Source of the DNA: Woeseiaceae bacterium
Lineage (GTDB): Bacteria; Pseudomonadota; Gammaproteobacteria; Steroidobacterales; Woeseiaceae
Reading direction: 5' to 3'
Length of the DNA stretch: 64,000 nt
NCBI GenBank assembly: GCA_028227395.1
Contig: JAOIZZ010000006.1
Location: 1 to 64,000 of the forward strand
Under the pieces are notes generated by a model. It did not search any database, had not been told where the DNA came from, and saw only the letters and a list, made by a program, of their open reading frames with translations. How positions within the stretch are numbered: the stretch's first letter is position 1; every line of letters begins with the position of its first letter. The position numbers and the translations under genes were made by a program. Shown piece after piece: positions 9,807-20,659 of this stretch.

Positions 9807-9897
9807 GGAGAGCTGGCTGAGTGGTCGAAAGCGCTCCCCTGCTAAGGGAGTATGGGTTAATAGCCCATCGAGGGTTCGAATCCCTCGCTCTCCGCCA
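9807..9897 (+). tRNA. tRNA-Ser (anticodon GCU)
   Basis: This is a class II tRNA with acceptor stem GGAGAGC/GCTCTCC, a D arm, an anticodon loop CTGCTAA giving anticodon GCT, a long variable arm (GGGTTAATAGCCC) and T arm GAGGGTTCGAATCCCTC. It has discriminator G and encoded CCA (9895-9897). Its 3' end is the integration site of the downstream element. Confidence 0.97.
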
Positions 9898-9898
9898 T
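9880..9898 (+). mobile_element. attL: 19-bp direct repeat in the tRNA-Ser 3' end
   Basis: ATCCCTCGCTCTCCGCCAT is repeated exactly at 20641-20659. It covers the T-stem 3' half, acceptor stem and CCA of tRNA-Ser, the usual crossover site of tRNA-targeting tyrosine integrases. The tRNA remains intact on the left side. Confidence 0.92.
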
Positions 9899-9948
9899 TC
9901 TAAAAATATCCTTATAAATCAATAACAAGCGTACCTTACTATTATAAA

Positions 9949-9979
9949 TGTAGTACAGATGTAGTATATTATGTAGTAC
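9949..9979 (+). promoter_or_regulatory. Left integrase arm-site array (3 x TGTAGTAC)
   Basis: Three direct repeats start at 9949 (TGTAGTAC), 9960 (TGTAGTAT) and 9972 (TGTAGTAC), so the spacings are 11 and 12 bp. The same motif, orientation and spacing recur at 20550-20580. They lie 51 bp inside attL. I infer arm-type binding sites for the element's integrase. Confidence 0.75.
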
Positions 9980-10014
9980 AAATACCTATTTTTAACCATC
10001 AGTCTCAAAAATTA

Positions 10015-10084
10015 CTGACGCAAGTCAGCTCTCTATTGCAGGGAAGGCAAAGTTTCTAGGTGGGTAGGCAGAGTGCCATACCGG
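10015..10084 (-). repeat. Right arm of the 70-bp inverted repeat
   Basis: This is the inverted partner of 9546-9615. It lies inside the element between the arm-site array and the first gene. The two arms enclose about 400 bp that include tRNA-Ser and attL. A similar sequence on both sides of attL is not explained by simple site-specific integration. Confidence 0.75.
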
Positions 10085-10169
10085 GTGGTACGGGTACTAT
10101 TCTAGCAGTCGAACATTTTTAGCCAGATTGGCTGTTAAGTAGATTGGTTTAATTATAGTTTACTTCTTC

Positions 10170-10685
10170 CTAATTGAATCTTTTTATTAAACCATCTGAA
10201 TTATTTTCATCATTGCATAGGTCGGGAAGACTTCTAACATAATCTTCAAATGGCTCTATAAATATTTGTGCTTCAAAGACATAACGTAAATGACAATGAT
10301 TCCATTGTAATTCAGTATATTGTTTTTCTTTATCCCAAATAACTTGATCCATCATTCCTTGTGTATATTGATAGAAGTTATTCTCGTTTACAGTCCAATA
10401 ATAAACTTGGCGTTGTTCTCTGTTGTAACGCTGAATTTCTGATTGATTGTCCCACGCTATATTTTCAACTCCAATTTCTTCAGGGCTAAACTCATAAGTA
10501 GATAATATTTGATTTGTTCTAAGTATTGTCCTTGATTGTTGTTGACCTGCTATTGCTATTTTTTGTGTTTGTCTCAATTCTAAGCCCACAAAAATTAATG
10601 AAGCAATCAAACCTATTACACCGACTATCTGAAATAGTTCACTGTATTTGGAAAGGCTGTTTATTGAGAAGATACTTTTATTCAT
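10170..10685 (-). CDS. Membrane-anchored paralog 1 of three
   Basis: This 171-aa protein has one transmembrane helix (about residues 16-36, ELFQIVGVIGLIASLIFVGLE) and a cytoplasmic or periplasmic helical domain ending LIKRFN. I recognise the general type, common in marine bacteria (one TM plus a helical domain rich in W and acidic residues), but know of no function. The first 36 residues are nearly identical to those of the next gene, while the rest is diverged. The upstream leader GTTGTGTAGGCT is shared by all or most of the three genes. Preceding it, TTCACA and TAGGCT with a 17-bp spacer could be the promoter. Confidence 0.7.
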   Translation of the reverse strand: MNKSIFSINSLSKYSELFQIVGVIGLIASLIFVGLELRQTQKIAIAGQQQSRTILRTNQILSTYEFSPEEIGVENIAWDNQSEIQRYNREQRQVYYWTVNENNFYQYTQGMMDQVIWDKEKQYTELQWNHCHLRYVFEAQIFIEPFEDYVRSLPDLCNDENNSDGLIKRFN

Positions 10686-10706
10686 TAGTGAAGCCTACAC
10701 AACTAA

Positions 10707-10720
10707 CAAACTCTTGTGAA
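10707..10720 (-). promoter_or_regulatory. 14-bp motif TTCACAAGAGTTTG, copy 3
   Basis: This copy lies just upstream of paralog 1. TTCACA is followed 17 bp later by TAGGCT. The same TTCACA-17-TAGGCT arrangement, with a changed middle, precedes paralog 3 near 11750. A promoter role is plausible. Confidence 0.45.
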
Positions 10721-10733
10721 GACTGGTTTTGTT

Positions 10734-11228
10734 TTAGGTACAGGCTCTTGATGGAATGGCTTCAATAAGTTTTACAAATTCTTTATCGAGCTGTCTTGTT
10801 TTAGTTTCCCATACACGTTCCAACATTTTACAATTTCTATCTGTTGATTCTTCACGTGATTTTATTCTCTTCATTATGGAGTATCTTGATTGCCAGATAC
10901 TTTCATCCATCAATCCTAATCTATATTTTAAATAATCTGTTTCTGAAATATTCCAGAACATGTGTTGGAAGTTATGAGAAAATACTTCGTATTTATCATA
11001 ATCATTTTCTGGATGAAGATAAGCTAAATTATTATTTGTCGCAGTATTATATAGATCAGTAAATGCTTTTGTTCTCTCTACTTGTTGTTCAACCAACGCA
11101 ATTTGCTGAGACTGTCTCAACTCCATACCTACAAATATCAGAGAAGCAATCAAGCCAATTACACCGACTATCTGAAACAGTTCACTGTATTTGGAAAGGC
11201 TGTTTATTGAGAAGATACTTTTATTCAT
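10734..11228 (-). CDS. Membrane-anchored paralog 2 of three
   Basis: This 164-aa protein shares its N-terminus (MNKSIFSINSLSKYSELF and the following TM helix) almost residue for residue with paralog 1. Its C-terminal domain is different (YLHPENDYDKYEVFSHNF ... DEFVKLIEAIP-like end). About 100 bp of DNA covering the start codon and TM is close to identical between the two, so duplication or gene conversion is recent. The start lies 24 bp after the stop of paralog 3, suggesting co-transcription. The function is unknown. Confidence 0.7.
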   Translation of the reverse strand: MNKSIFSINSLSKYSELFQIVGVIGLIASLIFVGMELRQSQQIALVEQQVERTKAFTDLYNTATNNNLAYLHPENDYDKYEVFSHNFQHMFWNISETDYLKYRLGLMDESIWQSRYSIMKRIKSREESTDRNCKMLERVWETKTRQLDKEFVKLIEAIPSRACT

Positions 11229-11252
11229 TAGTGAAGCCTACATAACGTTAAG

Positions 11253-11735
11253 TTAATTTTCATAAATGGCTTGATCAACCAAATCAATAAAACCAGGAGT
11301 TGATGATAGGAAAAATTCTTTATTATCCTCCCAAGCAAAATCTGGCATTTGTTTTGCATTGACTGAGTATGCATCATTCCATAGCTTCCAGTTAGAATCA
11401 CTCATCCGTTTTTCATTATGGTAATCAAATGCTTTTTCCCAATTATTGAAATCATTTAATCTAAGCCTAGTATATTGAAATCTTTCTACCTCGTTTAATG
11501 TATCTGTATTTTTTTCTGCTCTCATTATTAGAGATGCTAAAATAGGATCTGAGGCTATTCTTAAATTAAATTCTTCACTGCTACGGTATAACGTGGAATC
11601 AATTTCAGAAGTATCGATTAATCTCTGTTGATTATATTCAGTAATGGCGTAAATAAGTGAAATAATAACCATAATACAAGCCATAACCTGAGAGAGATTT
11701 GCTAGCTCAGATGTTGCTAATTTCTTAATCATCAT
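11253..11735 (-). CDS. Membrane-anchored paralog 3 of three
   Basis: This 160-aa protein has one TM helix (about residues 14-32, LSQVMACIMVIISLIYAI) followed by a helical domain with ERFQYTRLRLNDFNNWEKAF and a C-terminal GFIDLVDQAI. The layout and pattern (Er-f-y-RL...nnWE...yH) match the other two, but sequence identity is low. The leader shares GTTGTGTAGGCT with paralogs 1 and 2. It is probably the first gene of a three-gene leftward unit. The function is unknown; nothing identifies it as a known defence or immunity protein. Confidence 0.7.
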   Translation of the reverse strand: MMIKKLATSELANLSQVMACIMVIISLIYAITEYNQQRLIDTSEIDSTLYRSSEEFNLRIASDPILASLIMRAEKNTDTLNEVERFQYTRLRLNDFNNWEKAFDYHNEKRMSDSNWKLWNDAYSVNAKQMPDFAWEDNKEFFLSSTPGFIDLVDQAIYEN

Positions 11736-11820
11736 ACCAGCCTACACAACCTTACAGAACTTGTGAAGGATAGGTGTTGGTTTTGCACCAGTTTATCTTC
11801 CTTAAAAAACTCAACTGTTG

Positions 11821-11929
11821 TATAATAGACCCTGTATCAAGAGCAGAGTTAATTCTCTCTCCAACCTGCTAGCTTCTAGCAAGGTGGAACAAAAGATACG
11901 GCTGTTCAAGCAAACAAAAGGAGAACAAA
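11821..11929 (+). promoter_or_regulatory. Promoter and structured leader of the acidic-protein gene
   Basis: A perfect -10 box TATAAT lies at 11821-11826 with only a weak -35 upstream. Transcription from about 11833 would give a leader near 97 nt. It contains AGAG...CTCT and then a 9-bp stem ACCTGCTAG/CTAGCaAGGT (11864-11885) with a 3-nt loop, followed by a strong SD (AAAGGAG). The leader may be regulatory or stabilising. Confidence 0.5.
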
Positions 11930-12241
11930 ATGAACGAAAAATACACACCAGAAGTGGTTAAAATCAATGAGTTTGAGAACGCTCGCTTTGATGAGCAGGG
12001 TCACCTTCATATGGATGGTGCTGATTATCTTGAAGGCTTTCCAGATTATGAATGGTTCTTTGCTACTCACAAAGATAACTTCCCGATAATCTATAAAGAG
12101 TTATCTGGTGATGAGGTGGTGCACGAGGATATAGCTGAAGTGTTTATGAGCTATATGGAAGAGAAAGGCACTAAGGTTAGTGAGCTAATGGATATAAGCA
12201 AAGCCAATGAGTTGGAGTATCAGTTTAGTAATTGGATGTAA
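11930..12241 (+). CDS. Very acidic 103-aa protein
   Basis: I do not recognise this protein. It is soluble, with no signal or TM, and contains 24 Asp/Glu against 8 Lys/Arg. Segments such as FDEQGHLHMDGADYLEGF and SGDEVVHEDIAEVFMSYMEE are typical of a compact acidic fold. The strong promoter box, structured leader and perfect SD suggest substantial expression, unlike its SD-poor neighbours in the element. Acidic small proteins on mobile elements are sometimes DNA mimics with anti-restriction or anti-defence roles; that is only a hypothesis here. It is the only rightward gene in this part of the element. Confidence 0.65.
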   Translation: MNEKYTPEVVKINEFENARFDEQGHLHMDGADYLEGFPDYEWFFATHKDNFPIIYKELSGDEVVHEDIAEVFMSYMEEKGTKVSELMDISKANELEYQFSNWM

Positions 12242-12283
12242 GAGATCTATTATCTTATTTATTTGGCTTGATGGGATGTCAAA

Positions 12284-12832
12284 TTAAGAAAAATTATGTA
12301 ATAAGCCAATTTTTTTACATGGTCTGGTCCAGCTGTTCATATCGATAAAAACACTTTTAAAAGAATCCAGGATTTTTTCATTACTCATCACTCTTTCAAT
12401 TACATCGTTTGGTTTCAAGGTTAGTTCACTTTTATTGAGAATATAATTGTTGGATTTATTACCTTCACCTCTTATTGTAAATCTTATATAAATTGGTGTT
12501 TCTTCAGTAATAGTTAAATCATAAAATAATACTGAGAAGTAATGATCGTCTGTTTCGATATCCTTTAGTTGATAATCCCAAGGTGAATTTAGGATTTTAT
12601 CCTTATAACTGCTTTTATGTAATACTTCATAACCTTTAGTGAGATTTATGATATGCGCTATTACCTCAGAGTGTGTTGTTGACCAGAGTGTTCTGTTTTG
12701 CTCTCTACAATCATAAATCCTATCTACTACTAAATTTGGATTTTTTTCTTGAATAGTTAAGTAGTCACTTGATTCAACACAGGAGGTTACAAGAAATGGG
12801 ATAATGATAAAATGAAGAAATTTTTTAAACAT
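12284..12832 (-). CDS. Lipoprotein of unknown function
   Basis: This is a 182-aa protein with signal MFKKFLHFIIIPFLVTSC, lipobox V-T-S-C. The mature part contains two further cysteines: one near residue 43 in VVDRIYDCREQNRTLW and one near the end in TRPCKKIGLL. They could form a disulfide. It has no recognised domain. It probably resides on the periplasmic side of a membrane. It is separated from the next leftward gene by 40 bp. No clear SD precedes the ATG. Confidence 0.65.
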   Translation of the reverse strand: MFKKFLHFIIIPFLVTSCVESSDYLTIQEKNPNLVVDRIYDCREQNRTLWSTTHSEVIAHIINLTKGYEVLHKSSYKDKILNSPWDYQLKDIETDDHYFSVLFYDLTITEETPIYIRFTIRGEGNKSNNYILNKSELTLKPNDVIERVMSNEKILDSFKSVFIDMNSWTRPCKKIGLLHNFS

Positions 12833-12872
12833 AAAACAAGATTACACATCTTAAATAAATTTGTGAAGTGTG

Positions 12873-13487
12873 TCAGTTTTTCCTAGCACTCATCTCAACT
12901 ACAGGCAAATCAGGATAAGCCTCAATAACTCTTCGATTTAACTCATTATAGTATTCATCAGAATCTCCAATGATGCCGTCTTTGAGTACTTCAAAGTGGG
13001 TAGAATATGCAAAACTAGTTTCTTCATGATATCCACCCATGCCATACCAGGTATTTTTACTTGCCCAAGCTAGAGCTTCTGGTGTTGGTTGAACTACCTT
13101 TTTTTCTGAATTTGTTTTTACCTTTTCTTCTGTATTAGGTGCATTATCTTTTAGGTTTTCTGGACTCTCGTTTATCTGAACTTCTTGAGGACCAAAGATA
13201 TCCTCATACAAATAAATGAAATCCTCTGTTGCTGCTATTGATTTTTTTAACCCTTTTACTTCATTATCACATTCAATTCTAAGTTCTCTAATTCTTTTTA
13301 CTTTCTTTGCACATTCAAATTCAGAGATTTTATTTGTTTTTTTATATATATCTTTAAAAAATACAGCTTGTTTATTTACGCTCTCAAGAAGAACTTTGTA
13401 ATGTTCAAGTTCTTTTTTCTCCTCTGGAAGGAGCTTCATAAACTCAATATAAGCATCGTGAAATTTTTGATGCTCATCATCACTCAT
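12873..13487 (-). CDS. Coiled-coil protein with phage-type C-terminal domain
   Basis: This is a 204-aa soluble protein. Residues 1-95 are charged helices, probably a coiled coil. Residues 105-133 form a polar linker. The C-terminal 70 residues carry a pattern I know from phage and mobile-element proteins of unknown function: W141-ASKNTWYG, then FAYSTHFEVLKDGIIG, then SDEYYNELNRRVIEAYP. In this pattern the W, N-x-W-[FY]-G, EYY and terminal YP/FP are conserved. A good SD (GGGAG) precedes the start. It links the element to phage-related DNA, but the function is unknown. Confidence 0.65.
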   Translation of the reverse strand: MSDDEHQKFHDAYIEFMKLLPEEKKELEHYKVLLESVNKQAVFFKDIYKKTNKISEFECAKKVKRIRELRIECDNEVKGLKKSIAATEDFIYLYEDIFGPQEVQINESPENLKDNAPNTEEKVKTNSEKKVVQPTPEALAWASKNTWYGMGGYHEETSFAYSTHFEVLKDGIIGDSDEYYNELNRRVIEAYPDLPVVEMSARKN

Positions 13488-13679
13488 ATTAAATATTCTC
13501 CCAATACATAATTTAACTATACCACGCTAACTTGACAAGTCTAAAAATTGATGTTAAACTCTATGTCGATTTAAGCATTCATAGAGTTCATTAATACCTA
13601 CCTATTACTTTTAAGAGATCTCTTCTTAGAGAGCAATACAGAGCGTTCTAGAGGTATGTTTAAGGTGGAGTCTAAAAGG
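13488..13679. other. Intergenic, no gene seen
   Basis: This 192-bp A+T-rich spacer separates two leftward genes. It contains a palindromic AGAGATCTCT (about 13615-13624) and CTTCTTAGAGAG sequences that could form a small hairpin. I see no U-tract terminator and no repeat copy. Confidence 0.4.
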
Positions 13680-14930
13680 TTAATTGGTTAACGGAGACAG
13701 TCTCTTATAAATTTCTGGCATAACAGTGGAATACATTAGCATCTCCATAGTGTCTTTGTCAGATTCTTTGACTATGAAACTATCGTGGACTGTTAACGCA
13801 CAGATACCATTAAGTGCAGCTTTGTGTGCAATAAAAAATAAATGATTCTGATCTATCCAGGCATAATGCTCTGCTCTGTCTTTACCTTTGTAGAAATAAT
13901 CCTTCAGTAAAGCAAACTTCTCTTCAACAGCATCTACCAATTCTGATGTCGAGAGTTTGGATTTTTTCTTTAGATGTTTGTATTCATCTGTGTCGCAAAA
14001 GAAAGCAAACCTAGCTGATGATTCACTTCTGCTTTCAGAGTTGATCATACAGCGTGTTATTAAGATCTTAACCAGTTTTCTATCAACACCTTCAATGTGA
14101 TACAGATCAATATCTCTGCCTGTATTGAGGTAACTATCAAACAGAAACTTATGCAAATTATTGAGAATAGAAGCGTTGTAGTCCAGTTCCACAGTAGCTT
14201 CACCATCAATAGTAATCTCTCTTTTTTGATGCCAGTAGCCACCTGATCTGCCACCATAGAGTAATGGATACTTACTCTTCCAGTTGCGATAGGTGCGTGT
14301 CAGATGAATGTCCACATACTGCTCACCTGATTTTAAATTGATGATGGTATGTTGATTTAGGAAAGCACAATACTCTGACATTAACTTCTCTATATGGTCT
14401 GAGTATTCAGTTTCTTTAAAGTCTATGAGTTTTCCACCATTAGGTAAGGTCTCTCTATACATCAGATGACAATGATTATCTTCAGATATTGATTCAGGAA
14501 CAATACCTAGCTTCTCTGCTAACAGAATAACTCCATCTGTTGAGATCATTTCGGATTTTAAGGCGTGAGAATTATCTTCTTTTTGTTTGTAAGCGTTATC
14601 ACCTGTTTTATTTTTGATGTAACCTGCGTCTGCTAATTTATCAGCCACACTTATGATTCTTTTAATACCAATCTGTTGTGGATTGTAACGTTGAGGTAGT
14701 GTCTCACTGTGCTGTCTGCTATAGAGTATGGCTTGATTGGGATACTTAATTAGGTTGCAGAGAATAAGTCTGAGAGACTTTAATTGGCTTCTGATTTTGA
14801 TACTGGATAAATCATCATAAACATAGACACCATCATCTAATAGAGACTCAGATACCTCTTTTGAAGCGACATGAAGTGGATGTTTTGTTATCTCAACATC
14901 AGCATTTAAATGAAAGTTAAAGTATGGCAT
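13680..14930 (-). CDS. Mobile-element protein with family-A polymerase-like motifs
   Basis: This 416-aa protein belongs to a family I know from bacterial genomic islands, with no established function. Its core reads YGGRSGGYWHQ (225-235), then GEATVELDYNA (243-253), then DRKLVKILITRCMIN (283-297), and finally ALTVHDSFIV (378-387). These parallel motif A (catalytic D250 in ELDY), motif B (R284/K288 helix) and motif C (H382-D383-S384) of family-A DNA polymerases and T7-like RNA polymerases. The N-terminal 200 residues look DNA-binding or accessory and have no nuclease motif that I can see. A role in element replication, priming or defence is inferred. It is transcribed divergently from the membrane-protein genes. 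Confidence 0.7.
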   Translation of the reverse strand: MPYFNFHLNADVEITKHPLHVASKEVSESLLDDGVYVYDDLSSIKIRSQLKSLRLILCNLIKYPNQAILYSRQHSETLPQRYNPQQIGIKRIISVADKLADAGYIKNKTGDNAYKQKEDNSHALKSEMISTDGVILLAEKLGIVPESISEDNHCHLMYRETLPNGGKLIDFKETEYSDHIEKLMSEYCAFLNQHTIINLKSGEQYVDIHLTRTYRNWKSKYPLLYGGRSGGYWHQKREITIDGEATVELDYNASILNNLHKFLFDSYLNTGRDIDLYHIEGVDRKLVKILITRCMINSESRSESSARFAFFCDTDEYKHLKKKSKLSTSELVDAVEEKFALLKDYFYKGKDRAEHYAWIDQNHLFFIAHKAALNGICALTVHDSFIVKESDKDTMEMLMYSTVMPEIYKRLSPLTN

Positions 14931-14961
14931 TTAGTTTTGGCTCTCTATGGAGACTCTGTCT

Positions 14962-14987
14962 AGTCTATATACTATAAAGTCTATATA
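14962..14987 (+). repeat. Paired AGTCTATATA repeats between divergent genes
   Basis: AGTCTATATA occurs at 14962-14971 and 14978-14987, a 16-bp period. The pair lies 30 bp upstream of the polymerase-motif gene and overlaps its likely -10 (TATAGT on the minus strand). It could be an operator or short iterons. Confidence 0.4.
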
Positions 14988-15093
14988 GATAGCTGAAATA
15001 TACCAGTAGTTATCCTTCCATCCACCATCATTAATTATCTTAGATGTATAACAACTAACGGATTAGATTCTTTATTCTTTCTTTTGTTAGGTT

Positions 15094-15099
15094 TACTAT
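15094..15099 (+). promoter_or_regulatory. -10 box TACTAT, leaderless type
   Basis: The hexamer ends 6 nt before the ATG at 15106, and there is no SD. The -35 region is weak (TTTATT/TTATTC). The placement matches four other starts in this element. Confidence 0.45.
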
Positions 15100-15105
15100 A
15101 AAGTT

Positions 15106-16053
15106 ATGGTAAATAAGAAATATTTTTTAGCAGCAACTAAAGAAGTAGAGCAAGGTAACTTAGATGAAGCTCTGTGGGCTAAACAATTAGCAGTTGCAAA
15201 GGGTGATGAAGAAAAAGCTAAGTATGAATACATCGCAGAAAGAGCAACTACACTTCAAAAAGATGCCATAACTAGATTCTTTAATCCGATACTAAAAAAA
15301 TACATTCCACGTCTTCTGATATTGGCAGGTTCTTTGTTTGTTATTTTATTGATAATAGATAACTCAAATCAAAGAAAAGCAGAAACACAGCGAATTGAAA
15401 ACGCAAAAATTCAAACAGAGATAGAAGCGGCAGTCAGAGAAGCTCGTATAAAAAAAGAAGAGGTAGAAAAAGAAAAGGCTGAACAGGAAGAAGAAGAAAG
15501 GGCTGAAGAGGAAGAAAGATTAAGGATAGCTAATGAAGAAAGTCGTTTAGCTTTTGAAAATAGTTTAAATGGATTGAAGTGTGTTATAGAAACTGATCGG
15601 TATAAAGAAACATATGATCCCTTTTATCTTATTGTTAATGATGACAAAGAGAGCAATACGTGGGGCAAAACTGTAAATTCTGTTTTTTGGCAGGATCGCA
15701 CAAGACTAAAGTATAGTTATCCAGTAATTTTTAACACTTACGCAATGTGGCTTCAGGGAAATAATTCTTCTATTGATAGAAATTGGTATCAATTTTCAAC
15801 AACAAGGCAAATACTAACAGGTAGAAAACAAAGTAAGCTTGAAGATTGGGACTATACTTACGAAAAAATTAAAAATGTTAAACTCGATCGAGATACATTA
15901 AAATTTTATCTAACAATTGATCTAATTCATCGATCTGAAGTCGAAGTAATTGGTAACTGTACAAAAATTTCTTATACTAAAGTGCTGGAAATAGTCGACC
16001 AAGCTCAAATAAATGCTGATCCAGATGGGTTGTTTGAAAAGCCCTATCAATAG
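15106..16053 (+). CDS. Membrane protein with coiled coil, unknown
   Basis: This is a 315-aa protein. Residues 1-50 form a short helical module (EALWAKQLAVAKGDEEKAKYEYI) that also occurs, diverged, in the next gene. Such modules recur in small bacterial proteins. A single TM helix follows at about 68-83 (LLILAGSLFVILLIID), then a highly charged coiled coil (about 90-155, rich in KEEVEKEKAEQEEEE). A beta-rich C-terminal domain of about 160 residues has FYLTIDLIHRSEVEVIGNC. With one TM, the coiled coil and domain lie on the same side of the membrane. No family is recognised. No SD is seen and a leaderless start is likely. Confidence 0.65.
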   Translation: MVNKKYFLAATKEVEQGNLDEALWAKQLAVAKGDEEKAKYEYIAERATTLQKDAITRFFNPILKKYIPRLLILAGSLFVILLIIDNSNQRKAETQRIENAKIQTEIEAAVREARIKKEEVEKEKAEQEEEERAEEEERLRIANEESRLAFENSLNGLKCVIETDRYKETYDPFYLIVNDDKESNTWGKTVNSVFWQDRTRLKYSYPVIFNTYAMWLQGNNSSIDRNWYQFSTTRQILTGRKQSKLEDWDYTYEKIKNVKLDRDTLKFYLTIDLIHRSEVEVIGNCTKISYTKVLEIVDQAQINADPDGLFEKPYQ

Positions 16054-16089
16054 ATAGTAATCTATAGGATAAAAACCTAACCACGCCAT

Positions 16090-16117
16090 TTGTAAAACTA
16101 TCTAAACTAGCTATGAT
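16090..16117 (+). promoter_or_regulatory. Promoter, leaderless type
   Basis: -35 TTGTAA (16090-16095), a 16-bp spacer and -10 TATGAT (16112-16117). The expected start point coincides with the ATG at 16124. The upstream block CCATTTGTAAAAcTATCTAA is nearly repeated before the gene at 16715. Confidence 0.65.
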
Positions 16118-16123
16118 AAACCT

Positions 16124-16597
16124 ATGGGTATCTTTAAATCAGCCACAGAAAAACTTATCACTAAAGAAGTAGAGTACAAACTCCACGAGAGAGTTGTTAA
16201 AGATCTTACCGAAGGTTACAAAGATCTAGGTGTTTGGGGAAAAGCATTTGTGGATGCTGATGGTGATGATAAGAGAACTGAAGCTGTCTATGTAAAGTTA
16301 ATGGTGCAACATTATAAAGATACGGCTAAATCAGAAGCTGAGTTAGAAGCCATCTGGAAAGGAAGTTACCAGTATGCAGAGGCTGAGAAAGAAAAAGTAA
16401 GATTAAGGGAAGAGAAGAAAAGTATTGAAAAAGTTAAACCAGATAAGGCAAAAAAATCTATCCCGAATGTTATGTATAAACCTATTGGAAATAATCTATT
16501 TGGGAAGATGGGAGAAGAAAATAAGATAAGCGGGTTTGTAAAGTTCTTTATCGTAATTTTATTTTTAATTCTAATAACAAAGTTTTTAACTGTATAA
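16124..16597 (+). CDS. Tail-anchored protein sharing the 15106 N-terminal module
   Basis: This is a 157-aa protein. The N-terminal part (about residues 20-70: LTEGYKDLGVWGKAFVDADG and following) resembles the first 50 residues of the preceding gene. A lysine/glutamate-rich helical middle follows. The last 20 residues form one hydrophobic helix (FVKFFIVILFLILITKFLTV), the layout of a C-terminal tail anchor. Its bulk should therefore be cytoplasmic. There is no SD, and a well-placed -10 predicts a leaderless transcript starting at its ATG. The function is unknown. Confidence 0.65.
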   Translation: MGIFKSATEKLITKEVEYKLHERVVKDLTEGYKDLGVWGKAFVDADGDDKRTEAVYVKLMVQHYKDTAKSEAELEAIWKGSYQYAEAEKEKVRLREEKKSIEKVKPDKAKKSIPNVMYKPIGNNLFGKMGEENKISGFVKFFIVILFLILITKFLTV

Positions 16598-16619
16598 ATC
16601 CTATATTTAAATCCAACCC

Positions 16620-16660
16620 AACAAAATACCTATCTCACTAGCAAAGCCTGTCGCAGATTG
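16620..16660 (-). repeat. Dispersed small repeat, copy C (partial)
   Basis: On the minus strand this matches the second half of copy A: CAATCTGCGACAGGC, then TAGTGAGATAGGTATTTTG, with few changes. The first half is missing or rearranged (GGTTGGATAG follows directly). It lies between two genes of the integrative element. Confidence 0.65.
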
Positions 16661-16678
16661 CTATCCAACCTAACCCAT

Positions 16679-16707
16679 TTGTAAAATTATCTAATCTGTT
16701 TCATTAT
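16679..16707 (+). promoter_or_regulatory. Promoter, leaderless type
   Basis: -35 TTGTAA (16679-16684), a 17-bp spacer and -10 CATTAT (16702-16707). Transcription should begin at about 16714-16715, at the second ATG. This decides the start of the downstream gene. Confidence 0.6.
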
Positions 16708-16714
16708 GGTTGGT

Positions 16715-17425
16715 ATGAAAAAATTATTATTAATAGCACTGCTCTTCCACTCATCCATTAGTTTTTCAAAAAGAACAGATTGTGAAGCTATCTATCCTCC
16801 TCCAGTTACAACAACTCATAAATTAATTGATGGTTATCTTTTTACTTATGAAGATATACATAAAGGAGATATGCAACCAGATCTTTGTTTTCAGAATAGA
16901 TTCTATGTCACCGATGCAACTATCCCCGATGAATCTGAGTCTATTGGAAATATACCAATGTGGTATGAAAGACCTAAGTTATTTATGTATCAAGGGGATG
17001 AGTTCAGAAATCCAGTACATATCAAAACAATTAATATAACTAGACCGAATCAGTCACCTCTAGCCTATCAGATATTTAAGGCAGAACCTCGTTGGGATGA
17101 TCGAATGGATCGGCTGTATCACTATCTAATCTTCTCTACAAAAGGCTTCCATTACTTAGGCAGTGTTAGGGGTTACGATGTTGAATTTAAAGAACAGGGA
17201 ATAAGCCTATCAATGGCTCAACCTGTAACTAAGGAGTTGTTAGCTTGCTATGGTTTAGGTAATGATTTTAATATTAATGGCTCACTGTTATCTTTAACTG
17301 ATGAGCAGAATAAAAACCTTGATCGTTATATAGCCGATGACCCACAACAAACGATTTATTATGTGTTCAATTATAAGAGTATGAAACCACAAATTATGAA
17401 ACAAGATATGAGTATTGATTGTTAG
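16715..17425 (+). CDS. Exported protein of unknown function
   Basis: This is a 236-aa protein with a cleavable signal peptide (MKKLLLIALLFHSSISFSK). I chose ATG 16715 over ATG 16706 because the former begins a clean signal peptide and coincides with the predicted transcription start. The mature protein has four cysteines (near the N-terminus in KRTDCEAIYPPP, then PDLCFQNRF, LLACYGLG and the last residue), possibly two disulfides. It is beta-rich by eye and probably periplasmic. No family is recognised. Confidence 0.65.
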   Translation: MKKLLLIALLFHSSISFSKRTDCEAIYPPPVTTTHKLIDGYLFTYEDIHKGDMQPDLCFQNRFYVTDATIPDESESIGNIPMWYERPKLFMYQGDEFRNPVHIKTINITRPNQSPLAYQIFKAEPRWDDRMDRLYHYLIFSTKGFHYLGSVRGYDVEFKEQGISLSMAQPVTKELLACYGLGNDFNINGSLLSLTDEQNKNLDRYIADDPQQTIYYVFNYKSMKPQIMKQDMSIDC

Positions 17426-17449
17426 CCTAATCCATAGTGAAGATAAATC

Positions 17450-18238
17450 TTGCTAGATAGAATTAAAGAAAAATACTATTTAAAAAGACTTGGAATTGTT
17501 TTTCGAGATGATCCTGAGATATTAGAAAATTGGAAAGAAACTATTCAAAACAAAAATAGTCCACTAATCTTGCTACCTGAATTTTACAAGATGGACTCCA
17601 TTGATCACATAATGATGACTCCTAAGATAGCGGATACAGGCATACCCAAATTTGGGAGTTCTAATATTTCAGAGGATAAAATAAGAAAAGACATCAGAGG
17701 ATTCGCAGCTATCTGGTGTTATAACGGTATTTATGGAGCTGAGAAATTTTTCAAATTTATAAGAAGAAGGAATAACTTCAGATCAATTCCAGAAATTGGA
17801 TTACCTAAAATAGAGTTCATTAGCAGTCGTGTGGATCACCGATTACTTACAGAAGATGGTGAGAGAGTTTCTGGCTACTATTTTCAAGAGGGTGTTAAAG
17901 GTAGACCAAGAAAAGATTACATTGATGAAGGAGATAAAAATTGTATTAGTACAATTACTATCACTACAGAATTGAACCCACCATTACTTGGCAGTAAATT
18001 ATATGCATTATGTAATTGGTTTAAATATAAGTATGTTGTCCTAGATGGTGAAGATCCTTATTACGGAGATGAAGATGGAACTCTTTCCAAAAGGCAAAAG
18101 CATCACATCAAGTATCTTATTGAAAGATACCCTGAACTTTCAACGTATTTTGATGGCTGTAATCAAGAGTCCAATATCATCAAAGCTTATGATCAATGTG
18201 ACGATCTAGTTATAGTAAAATCAGCAACATCCTCTTAA
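17450..18238 (+). CDS. Unknown 262-aa protein
   Basis: I do not recognise this protein. It is soluble, with no signal peptide. Features include KYYLKRLGIVFRDDPEILENW at the N-terminus, a basic RRRNNFRSIPEIGLP (near 109-123), GYYFQEGVKGRPRKDYIDEG, and a C-terminal acidic DGEDPYYGDEDG. The start is placed at TTG 17450, with a weak GAAG upstream and only 24 bp after the previous stop. The next ATG would remove about 47 residues, so the start is uncertain. It probably shares the transcript of the exported protein upstream. Confidence 0.55.
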   Translation: MLDRIKEKYYLKRLGIVFRDDPEILENWKETIQNKNSPLILLPEFYKMDSIDHIMMTPKIADTGIPKFGSSNISEDKIRKDIRGFAAIWCYNGIYGAEKFFKFIRRRNNFRSIPEIGLPKIEFISSRVDHRLLTEDGERVSGYYFQEGVKGRPRKDYIDEGDKNCISTITITTELNPPLLGSKLYALCNWFKYKYVVLDGEDPYYGDEDGTLSKRQKHHIKYLIERYPELSTYFDGCNQESNIIKAYDQCDDLVIVKSATSS

Positions 18239-18302
18239 TTATTAATATTATAATTAGAATACTTCTACAGCTTAACAATCCTCACCATTAGGACAGAATT
18301 AC

Positions 18303-18346
18303 TGTCGCAGATTGTCAATTATTGCAGATGCTTGGATAGGTTATTT
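18303..18346 (-). repeat. Dispersed small repeat, copy B (partial)
   Basis: On the minus strand this matches the first half of copy A: AAATAACCTATCCAAGCATC, then TGCAATAATTGACAATCTGC, then GACAG, with about four differences over 44 bp. The second half is strongly diverged (about 18270-18300). Confidence 0.65.
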
Positions 18347-18424
18347 AAGGCTAAGTATATGTTTCTATTGTTATTTATTGTACTAGTTAAGATATATAGC
18401 AAATGAATAGTATTGGATACCAGT

Positions 18425-18451
18425 TTGTTAGGTTCTTTTTTCTGCTATTAT
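18425..18451 (+). promoter_or_regulatory. Promoter, leaderless type
   Basis: -35 TTGTTA (18425-18430), a 15-bp spacer and -10 TATTAT (18446-18451). The -10 ends 7 nt before the ATG at 18459, and there is no SD. Confidence 0.55.
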
Positions 18452-18458
18452 TTTTCGT

Positions 18459-19163
18459 ATGGAAGATGACTTAAATTCATTTGAATCTTTATTGCAAGCT
18501 ATTGTTAATTTTATATTCTCAATATTTGAGCTTATTGTTTGGCTAGTGTCTACGGTTGTTGGGTGGGGCGAAATAGTTGTGAGCTTTCCAGTGTCACTTG
18601 CTATCCATCAAATTCTTTTTATAACTTATGCTATTTTGATTAGTTTCTTTCTTACAATAGGAAATATAAATAGCTGGAGGACATATATTCAAAGGGCGAG
18701 GGTAATTGACACGGCATTGCAATGCACAAAATCAATAACAGATGCAATTATAGTGATTGGGCAAAACTCCTCTAATCCATCTGAAGGAAATTTTGGCAGT
18801 GATAACTTCGCTCATCGTGATGATTTGATCGTTGTCTCATATGATGAAGACGTTTATCAGGAAGAATATGAAAGTTATGATGGTTTTGACGTAGAAAATT
18901 ACAGGATATTTACTTTAGATGAAAAGTCTAAAATCCCTGATAGGCAAGATTTAAAAATAATGAAAAAAGTTTCTTATGGTTATACCTACAATTACGACGA
19001 GGAAGTCACCGAGCAACAAGCACTTAAAATATTGCAATTGAAAAAGGAACCTAGAAGACTAAATTTCTTTGAGGCAACAAGAATTGATATATTGGGCGTA
19101 TTAGGTATTTCTTTATTTTGGTACCTTGTTTATCGTTTTATGGTGTATTTATCTTCTATCTAA
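18459..19163 (+). CDS. Integral membrane protein, unknown
   Basis: This is a 234-aa protein with about three hydrophobic segments. Two are near the N-terminus (about residues 12-34, IVNFIFSIFELIVWLVSTVV, and 47-68, LAIHQILFITYAILISFFLTIG). One is close to the C-terminus (IDILGVLGISLFWYLVYRF). The central 120 residues are soluble and acidic, with repeated Tyr/Asp/Glu (SYDEDVYQEEYESYDGFD). No family is recognised. The start is predicted to be leaderless. It is the last gene before the integrase, which converges on it. Confidence 0.65.
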   Translation: MEDDLNSFESLLQAIVNFIFSIFELIVWLVSTVVGWGEIVVSFPVSLAIHQILFITYAILISFFLTIGNINSWRTYIQRARVIDTALQCTKSITDAIIVIGQNSSNPSEGNFGSDNFAHRDDLIVVSYDEDVYQEEYESYDGFDVENYRIFTLDEKSKIPDRQDLKIMKKVSYGYTYNYDEEVTEQQALKILQLKKEPRRLNFFEATRIDILGVLGISLFWYLVYRFMVYLSSI

Positions 19164-19224
19164 AGTCTGGTAACTGCTGAATATTTCCTAACTCAACATC
19201 CCACGTAAATGGATGCCATAAGAT

Positions 19225-20541
19225 TTAAAGAGCAGGTAACTGCTTAATATATTTATTCATAACTTCTAACGTCACACCTTTAGAGTAACGCTGAAAAGAG
19301 AGACTGTCTCCTGCTGTATGTCCTGTTATGCGATCAACAATGTTCTCAGGACATTCTAAATTTTCAAGATTAGTAGAACAGTTCCCACGTAGACTATGAA
19401 AGGCATATTCTCTGCCTTTATCCTGATAACCTGCTCTTTTCTTTGCTAAACCAAAAGCTTTTGAATAAGCATCTGATGATGGTCTGCTATTAAATCCAGT
19501 AAAATCTTTAAGCATTTTTTCTAAGTTCTTGTGGATTGGTGTTTGTCTTTTAGCAAACTTATTTTTTCCAACTGTAAGTTCCTTGAAATAGAAATACCTG
19601 ATACCAGTTTCTTCTTCTGTGTGAATTGTCTCAGAGTTAAGATCAAAGATTTCATCTATCCTAGCACCTGTATACCAACCAATATGAATCATCAACTTGT
19701 CTTGCTCTTGCTCACAACAAGCAAGTATTTTTTTTAATTCATCTTCTGTCCAATTTTCATAAGGCGTTGACTCTTGGCTGAATTGGCTATCCCACTCAGT
19801 AAATGGATTGGCATTGTTTAGCTCTTCATAGTCTCTGACGTACTTCCAGATCACACTGAGTGGAGAAAGGTAGCCCTTAATCGTTTTGTGATGCCTGCTA
19901 TCTTCTTTACATAATTTTATAAACGTTCTAACAGCACCTCTATTCAGACTATAAACATAATGATTTTCACGCCCTGATAGTTGATGGAATAACTCTGAAG
20001 CTCTTGAGTATTTCAATAATGATTTATGCGGTAGACCATCGGCTTTCTTTTCCTCAATCACATTAGCTAATGCTTGCTTTAATGTAAGCCTAGCTTTTTC
20101 TTCAACTTGCTCTAGCTCTTTACTAATTGATTCTCCCAAGCGTCTTCTTAAAGCAATATAGGTGAGCTTATCTTTGTCTGGCATCGGAGGTGTATTCGGA
20201 TCATTAGGATCCCATTCCTGGTGACCTTCATAATTGTAATCAACTCTTACTTCATCATCCCAACGCTCCAGCTTATGCCGAAGATCATCTTCAGGTAAAC
20301 CTTCTAACGCTTCCAGTTTATCTGAGAGCAACGGATTGCTTCTCTCGGCATTGAGTAACTTGTCAAAGTAGACGTTATATCTACTTCGTTCCATTAATGC
20401 TTTTGAATAGCTATCTGTGTCTAAAGATTTTAAAAAGTTTTTAACACCAAGCGCCTTTAAAAGTTCTTTGGGAACACGTCTGTTATAGAAGTATTTACCT
20501 CGAATTAATCTTAGACGCTTCATATCTTTTTTGCTGTTCAT
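19225..20541 (-). CDS. int: Tyrosine-type site-specific integrase
   Basis: This 438-aa recombinase integrates and excises the element at tRNA-Ser. The N-terminal 130 residues form an arm-binding region; the core-binding domain is at about 150-245. The catalytic domain shows R294 (TGARIDEI), K326 (TVGKNKF), H382-x-x-R385 (FHSLRG), H408 (ITGHTAGD) and nucleophile Y419 (FQRYSKG), so it is complete. It starts 9 bp from an array of three arm-type repeats, one of which overlaps its putative -10 (TACAAT, 6 nt before the ATG). Autoregulation is therefore likely. It reads inward from attR. Confidence 0.95.
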   Translation of the reverse strand: MNSKKDMKRLRLIRGKYFYNRRVPKELLKALGVKNFLKSLDTDSYSKALMERSRYNVYFDKLLNAERSNPLLSDKLEALEGLPEDDLRHKLERWDDEVRVDYNYEGHQEWDPNDPNTPPMPDKDKLTYIALRRRLGESISKELEQVEEKARLTLKQALANVIEEKKADGLPHKSLLKYSRASELFHQLSGRENHYVYSLNRGAVRTFIKLCKEDSRHHKTIKGYLSPLSVIWKYVRDYEELNNANPFTEWDSQFSQESTPYENWTEDELKKILACCEQEQDKLMIHIGWYTGARIDEIFDLNSETIHTEEETGIRYFYFKELTVGKNKFAKRQTPIHKNLEKMLKDFTGFNSRPSSDAYSKAFGLAKKRAGYQDKGREYAFHSLRGNCSTNLENLECPENIVDRITGHTAGDSLSFQRYSKGVTLEVMNKYIKQLPAL

Positions 20542-20547
20542 ATATTA

Positions 20548-20553
20548 ATTGTA
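20548..20553 (-). promoter_or_regulatory. int: int -10 box overlapping an arm site
   Basis: TACAAT on the minus strand ends 6 nt before the int ATG, with no SD. It overlaps the first TGTAGTAC repeat, so integrase bound there should occlude its own promoter. Confidence 0.5.
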
Positions 20554-20580
20554 GTACAAATGTAGTACATTTTGTAGTAC
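20550..20580 (+). promoter_or_regulatory. Right integrase arm-site array (3 x TGTAGTAC)
   Basis: Exact TGTAGTAC repeats lie at 20550-20557, 20561-20568 and 20573-20580. Spacings are 11 and 12 bp, the same as at 9949-9979 and in the same orientation. They lie 60 bp inside attR, about one helical turn apart. Confidence 0.78.
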
Positions 20581-20640
20581 AAGATGCTTTATTTAGTGGG
20601 ATACAGATGAGAGTACTGAATTTAAAGGGTTAAGCGAAGT

Positions 20641-20659
20641 ATCCCTCGCTCTCCGCCAT
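20641..20659 (+). mobile_element. attR: 19-bp direct repeat
   Basis: This is an exact second copy of ATCCCTCGCTCTCCGCCAT, without the rest of the tRNA. The preceding bases (GGGTT...CGAA) retain traces of the T arm. It lies 11 bp from the stop codon of the convergent GMC oxidoreductase gene. Confidence 0.92.

Follow-up and report, generated by a model that had tools for sequence, protein, structure and literature searches.

The polymerase gene and its catalytic motifs

Can a 416-residue protein encoded on a small chromosomal island act as a polymerase and, if so, what would it copy? The question is raised by a gene at positions 13680..14930 (minus strand) of the window, the whole 64,000-nucleotide stretch of Woeseiaceae DNA that was analysed. 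A preliminary description had read its product as an island-encoded protein of no known function with family-A polymerase-like motifs. The reading frame is complete, starts with ATG and is single-copy in its own genome (1.6-Mb assembly, 85% complete), which encodes the host PolA elsewhere. All the motifs named in that description were found at the residues given for them. The stretch GGRSGGYWHQ (residues 226-235; 14226..14255, minus strand) contains R228, a candidate template-contacting arginine of a beta-hairpin, and is followed by motif A, ELDYNA, with D250 as first catalytic aspartate (14172..14189, minus strand). Motif B of the fingers, R284xxxK288, lies in residues 284-297 (RKLVKILITRCMIN; 14040..14081, minus strand) and motif C, VHDSF, at residues 381-385 (H382-D383-S384; 13776..13790, minus strand), D383 being the second catalytic aspartate.

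Conservation was assessed in an alignment of 29 members from Proteobacteria and two Vibrio phages, which share 16-50% identity with the window polymerase, the nearest one reaching 93%. R212, G227, R228, D250, Y277, K288, H382 and D383 were invariant (29/29) and R284 was kept in 28 sequences, so that both aspartates on which the polymerase reading hinged are present in every homologue. The two closest proteins (93% and 50% identical across the aligned region), found in assemblies that carry the label uncultured Woeseiaceae, also keep all catalytic residues. In the window polymerase the RxxxK signature is preceded by D275-x-Y277, whose aspartate occurs in most alignment rows, not all. In DNA polymerase I the glutamate five residues past the motif A aspartate is the sugar-discriminating (sugar-gate) residue, and motif C reads HDE in PolA and HDSF in T7 RNA polymerase. 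Position D250+5 was a glutamate in none of the 29 sequences (12 have a histidine there, the others Phe, Gly, Tyr, Ile, Cys, Lys or Asn), and residue 384 was a serine, giving an HDS motif C, in 17 of them. Because this glutamate is absent and Ser384 resembles T7 RNA polymerase, we infer from the sequence that the window polymerase may have a relaxed sugar choice, and hence a capacity for priming or RNA synthesis. It also differs from PolA in motif B, which does not have the Phe/Tyr-Gly pattern of the O helix.

Predicted fold

Structure prediction and structural searches pointed to a polymerase palm. The AlphaFold2 model, calculated with 27 sequences, had a pLDDT of 80.2 and a pTM of 0.78. The 50 best entries retrieved by VIA-align were, without exception, structures of T7-like RNA polymerases or of family-A DNA polymerases (Z 10.1-11.9), aligned over residues ~150-416, with T7 RNA polymerase (1s76) in first position (Z 11.9, 3.8 Å over 240 residues). 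In a Foldseek search of the PDB, mitochondrial RNA polymerase and Taq polymerase stood near the top of the ranking, with E-values of 2.8e-3 or worse. In a library of viral structures the best matches were phage proteins of ~400-450 residues (E down to 7.8e-20), one of which, from a Rheinheimera phage, bears the name 'DNA polymerase'. For the thumb the model has one long helix (residues 175-191). Reverse transcriptase, family-B polymerase and AEP primase readings were dropped as none appeared among the top structural matches, an absence that alone does not exclude them. The invariant catalytic residues together with the palm therefore define a minimal family-A/T7-like polymerase, and we are highly confident that the protein has this fold with an intact active site. 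Since a nuclease domain is absent, 'minimal polymerase' describes the 416-residue protein fairly.

The N-terminal domain (residues 1-150; 14481..14930, minus strand) lies outside this core. Residues 1-162 folded alone (22 sequences) gave a moderate model with a pLDDT of 67.5. The structural neighbours listed for it were nearly all winged-helix proteins, including eS19, eS10, MarR/PadR/LmrR regulators and TFIIIC (Z up to 7.0), while its Foldseek matches had E-values of 0.03 or worse. The model is thus suggestive of a winged-helix-like N-terminal domain.

Family assignment

Sequence profiles assigned the protein to a family of the PHROG collection. Profile phrog_4756, whose function is not annotated, matched residues 37-399 of the window polymerase (E 1.2e-26) and was matched by all 29 members of the alignment. 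AUR84708, a representative of the phage polymerases called divPolA2, and gp041 of Barba19A matched the same profile (E 1.8e-91 and 4.2e-65, respectively). Both also matched a profile built from the bacterial members only (E 8.8e-35 for AUR84708), to which the host cell's own PolA gave no match. On these profile matches the window polymerase is placed in the phrog_4756 family, divPolA2 included, and not in a new one.

In the Pfam scan the sole match was a sub-threshold one to PF00940 (RNA_pol) over motif C (E 0.035; 13.4 bits vs a cut-off of 22), there was no match to PF00476, the canonical PolA model, and no NCBIfam model matched. Alignment of the window family profile with PolA by hhalign was not significant (probability 5%), its single aligned stretch putting motif A on motif A. 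A phmmer search of PDB sequences returned no match and a profile search one chance match only. No relatives were found in viral contigs scanned with the window polymerase alone, or in plasmids, where three records appeared only with a distant family member as query.

A tree of the 29 sequences grouped the three polymerases from Woeseiaceae with good support and set their clade on a long branch, which marks them as a divergent lineage of the phrog_4756 family. The island branch of the family carries the features of TV-Pol, a polymerase group described from bacterial islands. No named TV-Pol sequence matched the window polymerase strongly or directly, the sole candidate reached being MAP_030 of Ma-LMM01, assumed to be a published TV-Pol member, which was a weak match (E 0.002 in a 50-kb set); TV-Pol membership of the window polymerase therefore rests on features. 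The family had already been described, as TV-Pol in 2008 (PMC2579912) and, for its phage members, as divPolA2 in 2024 (PMC11348598). TV-Pol from bacterial islands and divPolA2 from phages, published separately as orphans, appear to be one family. Taking together the reading frame, the phrog_4756 match, the palm model and the invariant catalytic residues, we annotated the gene as a TV-Pol/divPolA2-like minimal family-A/T7-like polymerase.

A tRNA-Ser element delimited by direct repeats

The gene proved to be island-encoded, as had been proposed: it is bracketed by two direct repeats of 19 bp that stem from the 3' end of a serine tRNA gene. The target, tRNA-Ser(gct) (9807..9897, plus strand), was identified by ARAGORN and Rfam. 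The left att repeat, ATCCCTCGCTCTCCGCCAT, covers its 3' end (9880..9898, plus strand) and is repeated exactly (19/19) on the right (20641..20659, plus strand); the repeats delimit an element of 10,761 bp (9899..20659). Its GC content is 33.7%, vs 37.8% in the window outside it. A tyrosine integrase is encoded near the right end (19225..20541, minus strand; PF00589, E 3e-12) and has homologues in two other Woeseiaceae elements, L007 and L008. Just within each end of the element lie three copies of an ~11-bp repeat with TGTAGTACA, exact or nearly so, on the left at 9949..9981 and on the right at 20550..20582, directly upstream of the integrase start (both plus strand). Exact TGTAGTACA sites number five in the 64-kb window, and all of them lie at the element ends; the same motif is present at both ends of L007 and L008. 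Such end repeats would suit integrase arm sites or replication iterons, for which we consider them candidates.

A second conserved sequence, a non-coding box of the form ACATCTAAGATAA(0-3 nt)TAATGATGGTGGATGGA (15017..15047, minus strand), was detected upstream of the polymerase, ~85-115 bp from its start. The three Woeseiaceae elements have it in identical form but for the 0-3 nt gap, even though two of the polymerases share only about half of their residues. Of nine genomes of the genus three contain the box, precisely those carrying the element (contig number and position identify G941 and G942 in this count as the genomes of L007 and L008). This box is a candidate operator or origin site. 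Folded as RNA, the upstream leader of the polymerase was unremarkable (z -1.6). Downstream of the polymerase, a gene for a 204-residue protein (12873..13487, minus strand) matched phrog_28737 at its C-terminus (E 3.9e-8); because it is absent beside the polymerase in L007 and L008, it is probably cargo rather than a dedicated partner of the polymerase. No helicase was found among the island proteins scanned against Pfam.

Related elements and genomic neighbourhoods

The L007 element (5.3 kb) is enclosed by a 17-bp repeat at tRNA-Ser(gga) and the L008 element (9.4 kb) by a 27-bp repeat (26/27) at tRNA-Ser(gct). Each carries an integrase and a polymerase in the same orientation, and across the three Woeseiaceae elements the polymerase persists where other genes differ. 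The joined flanks of the L008 element match the unoccupied site of a relative, L090, with 857 of 870 positions identical and no gap across the junction. The window element is flanked by a GMC oxidoreductase gene, which has a counterpart in the relative L088; there the tRNA 3' end lies ~0.7 kb from it with no island between. A small CxxC-rich, zinc-ribbon-like protein (68-71 aa) is encoded downstream of the polymerase in L007 (11425-11640) and L008 (8797-9003), and a different gene takes its place in the window element. L042 (1140-1644) and L043 contain C-terminal relics of the polymerase close to genes for tRNA-Ser(tga) and tRNA-Ser(gga); motif C of the L042 relic reads YDEF, its histidine being lost, and TACTACA repeats lie on the tRNA 3' side. 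Relics and repeats hint that insertion at serine tRNA genes has happened more than once.

Gene neighbourhoods of the family showed a mobile-element context outside the Woeseiaceae as well. A tyrosine integrase was present within ~8-9 kb of the polymerase in 16 of 20 family loci from other Proteobacteria, vs 1 of 20 control regions from the same genomes, a contrast somewhat biased by the integrase profile, which started from the integrases of the window, L007 and L008 and was then extended with hits from the tested loci. The homologues also have serine resolvases, restriction-modification genes and, in one case, a TIR effector in their vicinity. Five loci share a conserved protein of ~235-250 aa near the polymerase (L053 7436-8143, L055 7459-8157, L058 10654-11397, L059 9850-10605 and L061 7272-8003), with no Pfam match in the two members scanned. 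In phages the family is found in ~170 records, 115 of which are Rheinheimera phages. In the two Vibrio phages a UvrD-type (SF1) helicase gene adjoins the polymerase (L009) or lies ~1.8 kb away (L010). One Rheinheimera phage with a family polymerase also has an annotated DnaG-type primase and a DNA polymerase, and the family polymerase would therefore be accessory in such phages.

Comparison with known systems

divPolA2 was described in barbaviruses, which also encode DnaG and another DNA polymerase, and in other phages by Yutin et al. (2024; PMC11348598), who found its N-terminal domain similar to nothing known. The window polymerase shares with it the profile family, a palm with conserved catalytic residues, a separate N-terminal domain, the lack of an exonuclease and comparable structural matches (mitochondrial RNA polymerase, Z about 12). 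It differs by its N-terminal domain, which models as winged-helix-like, and by its location on a chromosomal tRNA-Ser element with an integrase, whereas divPolA2 is a gene of tailed phages. TV-Pol, with its additional domain TV-PolN, was described by Iyer, Abhiman and Aravind (2008; PMC2579912), who predicted primase plus polymerase activity and reported neighbourhoods with integrases, resolvases or transposases and restriction-modification genes. Here again the likeness extends to the minimal palm/fingers core with the hairpin arginine, two aspartates and RxxxK, to the extra N-terminal domain without any nuclease, and to island neighbourhoods with integrase or resolvase. TV-PolN was however predicted to be all-helical, whereas the N-terminus of the window polymerase models as alpha/beta and winged-helix-like. 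TV-Pol fingers conserve an aspartate immediately ahead of RxxxK, and the TV-Pol thumb has two antiparallel helices; at these places the window polymerase shows D275-x-Y277 and, in the model, the single long helix 175-191.

The only characterised enzyme placed in TV-Pol is CcPol of SCCmec, which by itself extends primers and, together with its partner MP, primes de novo (PMC7581432). The window polymerase resembles the CcPol-MP and PolA-SSB primases (SCCmec, Bacillota) in being a mobile-element family-A core without a full exonuclease, and a comparable priming role is likely. According to published work, CcPol stands near true PolA and contains the PolA domain (PMC7581432, PMC10061031), to which the window polymerase has no match, and the window element has neither an adjacent D5-type helicase nor a conserved partner gene. 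PolA-SSB primases have an adjacent OB-fold SSB partner; the downstream gene 12873..13487, considered for such a CcPol-MP-like part, is not conserved in L007 or L008 and is an improbable candidate. A PICMI satellite was rejected, its primase (DUF3987/DUF5906; PMC10803314) belonging to another family. With T7-like and mitochondrial RNA polymerases and DNA polymerase I the window protein has in common the palm/fingers fold and catalytic residues, but it falls below the Pfam cut-off and is half the size of T7-like RNA polymerases and DNA polymerase I or less.

Proposed role and alternatives

From the computed family, fold, conserved active site and mobile-element context we infer what the protein may do, namely catalysis, priming, DNA binding by its N-terminal domain and replication. 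We consider it rather probable that it acts in replicating the element after excision, as a primase and/or as a polymerase. The integrase would excise the 10.8-kb element from tRNA-Ser, and the polymerase would be brought to the element DNA, perhaps through its N-terminal domain. It would then make primers and/or extend them on the excised circle, with D250 and D383 in the palm, R228 holding the template and R284xxxK288 in the fingers, while host helicase and replisome would supply the remaining steps of replication. The invariant active site, the palm fold, the profile matches of divPolA2, the integrase linkage with resolvase and restriction-modification neighbours like those of TV-Pols, the L008 empty site, the helicase neighbours in phages, the CcPol precedent and the separate PolA of the host speak for this role. 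Against it stand the lack of an island helicase, the accessory position in barbaviruses, Foldseek PDB E-values of at least 2.8e-3, the non-significant profile alignment to PolA and the moderate N-terminal model.

The main rival is a small DNA-dependent RNA polymerase that would transcribe element or phage genes or lay RNA primers, a possibility also raised for divPolA2 by Yutin et al. (PMC11348598). T7 and mitochondrial RNA polymerases are the best structural matches (Z 11.9), but the gap in Z to the DNA polymerases is within a tie. Motif C is HDS in 17/29 sequences, as in the HDSF of T7 RNA polymerase and not the HDE of PolA, and the PolA sugar-gate glutamate is absent from all 29; yet the protein has no promoter-recognition domain like that of T7 RNA polymerase, and the island context and the TV-Pol and CcPol precedents favour replication. 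We judge this RNA-polymerase role unlikely. Quite unlikely too is an accessory polymerase for repair, gap filling or end processing, which would protect element or phage DNA and might be weakly template-dependent. The presence of DnaG and another polymerase beside it in barbaviruses, the variable neighbourhoods of divPolA2 (PMC11348598), the small size and the missing full thumb would fit such a role, whereas the strong integrase linkage in cells does not, and no repair genes were seen beside the polymerase. The invariant template arginine R228 argues for template use, and the template-independent enzyme envisaged in the preliminary description found no support.

The same description had proposed a defence function, which also remained unsupported. 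Restriction-modification genes and a TIR effector do lie near several homologues, but PADLOC gave no match for the window polymerase and marginal matches only among the neighbours tested, and the polymerase persists across the three Woeseiaceae elements despite changes in other genes; cargo with an anti-phage function is very improbable. That the protein is a catalytically dead remnant is hardly credible: C-terminal relics do exist near tRNA-Ser genes of related genomes, L042 without the motif C histidine, but the copy in the window is full length and has lost none of its catalytic residues, which the relatives with 93% and 50% identity keep too.

Returning to replication of the excised element, a stronger version would make the 416-residue protein at once initiator, primase and polymerase of small helicase-less tRNA islands, its winged helix binding the element and its palm, like that of T7 RNA polymerase, lacking the sugar-gate glutamate. 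We regard this version as doubtful. If true, it would add a further type of primase/initiator to DnaG and AEP, common to phages (divPolA2) and chromosomal islands and independent of an SSB partner. New with respect to the published families are the element with its ends, its relatives and integrase linkage, the weak winged-helix model of the N-terminus, the absent sugar-gate glutamate and the lack of an island helicase. The Woeseiaceae elements are small and sharply bounded (5.3-10.8 kb); since their ends, target and one empty site are known, the function of the polymerase is directly testable on them, as regards primer synthesis, the choice of DNA vs RNA and recognition of the end repeats or upstream box by the N-terminal domain.

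Other features of the element

At 11829-12241 (plus strand), within the element, a SAM-I/IV riboswitch (RF01725), which scored 69.4 bits vs a gathering threshold of 41.1, lies directly upstream of an orphan 103-aa reading frame. At 10170-11228 (minus strand) two adjacent paralogues encode small membrane proteins (MNKSIFSINSLSKYSELFQIVGVIGLIASLIFVG...) and share a 178-nt repeat at 82% identity; copies of this small membrane protein are also present in L007 and L008.
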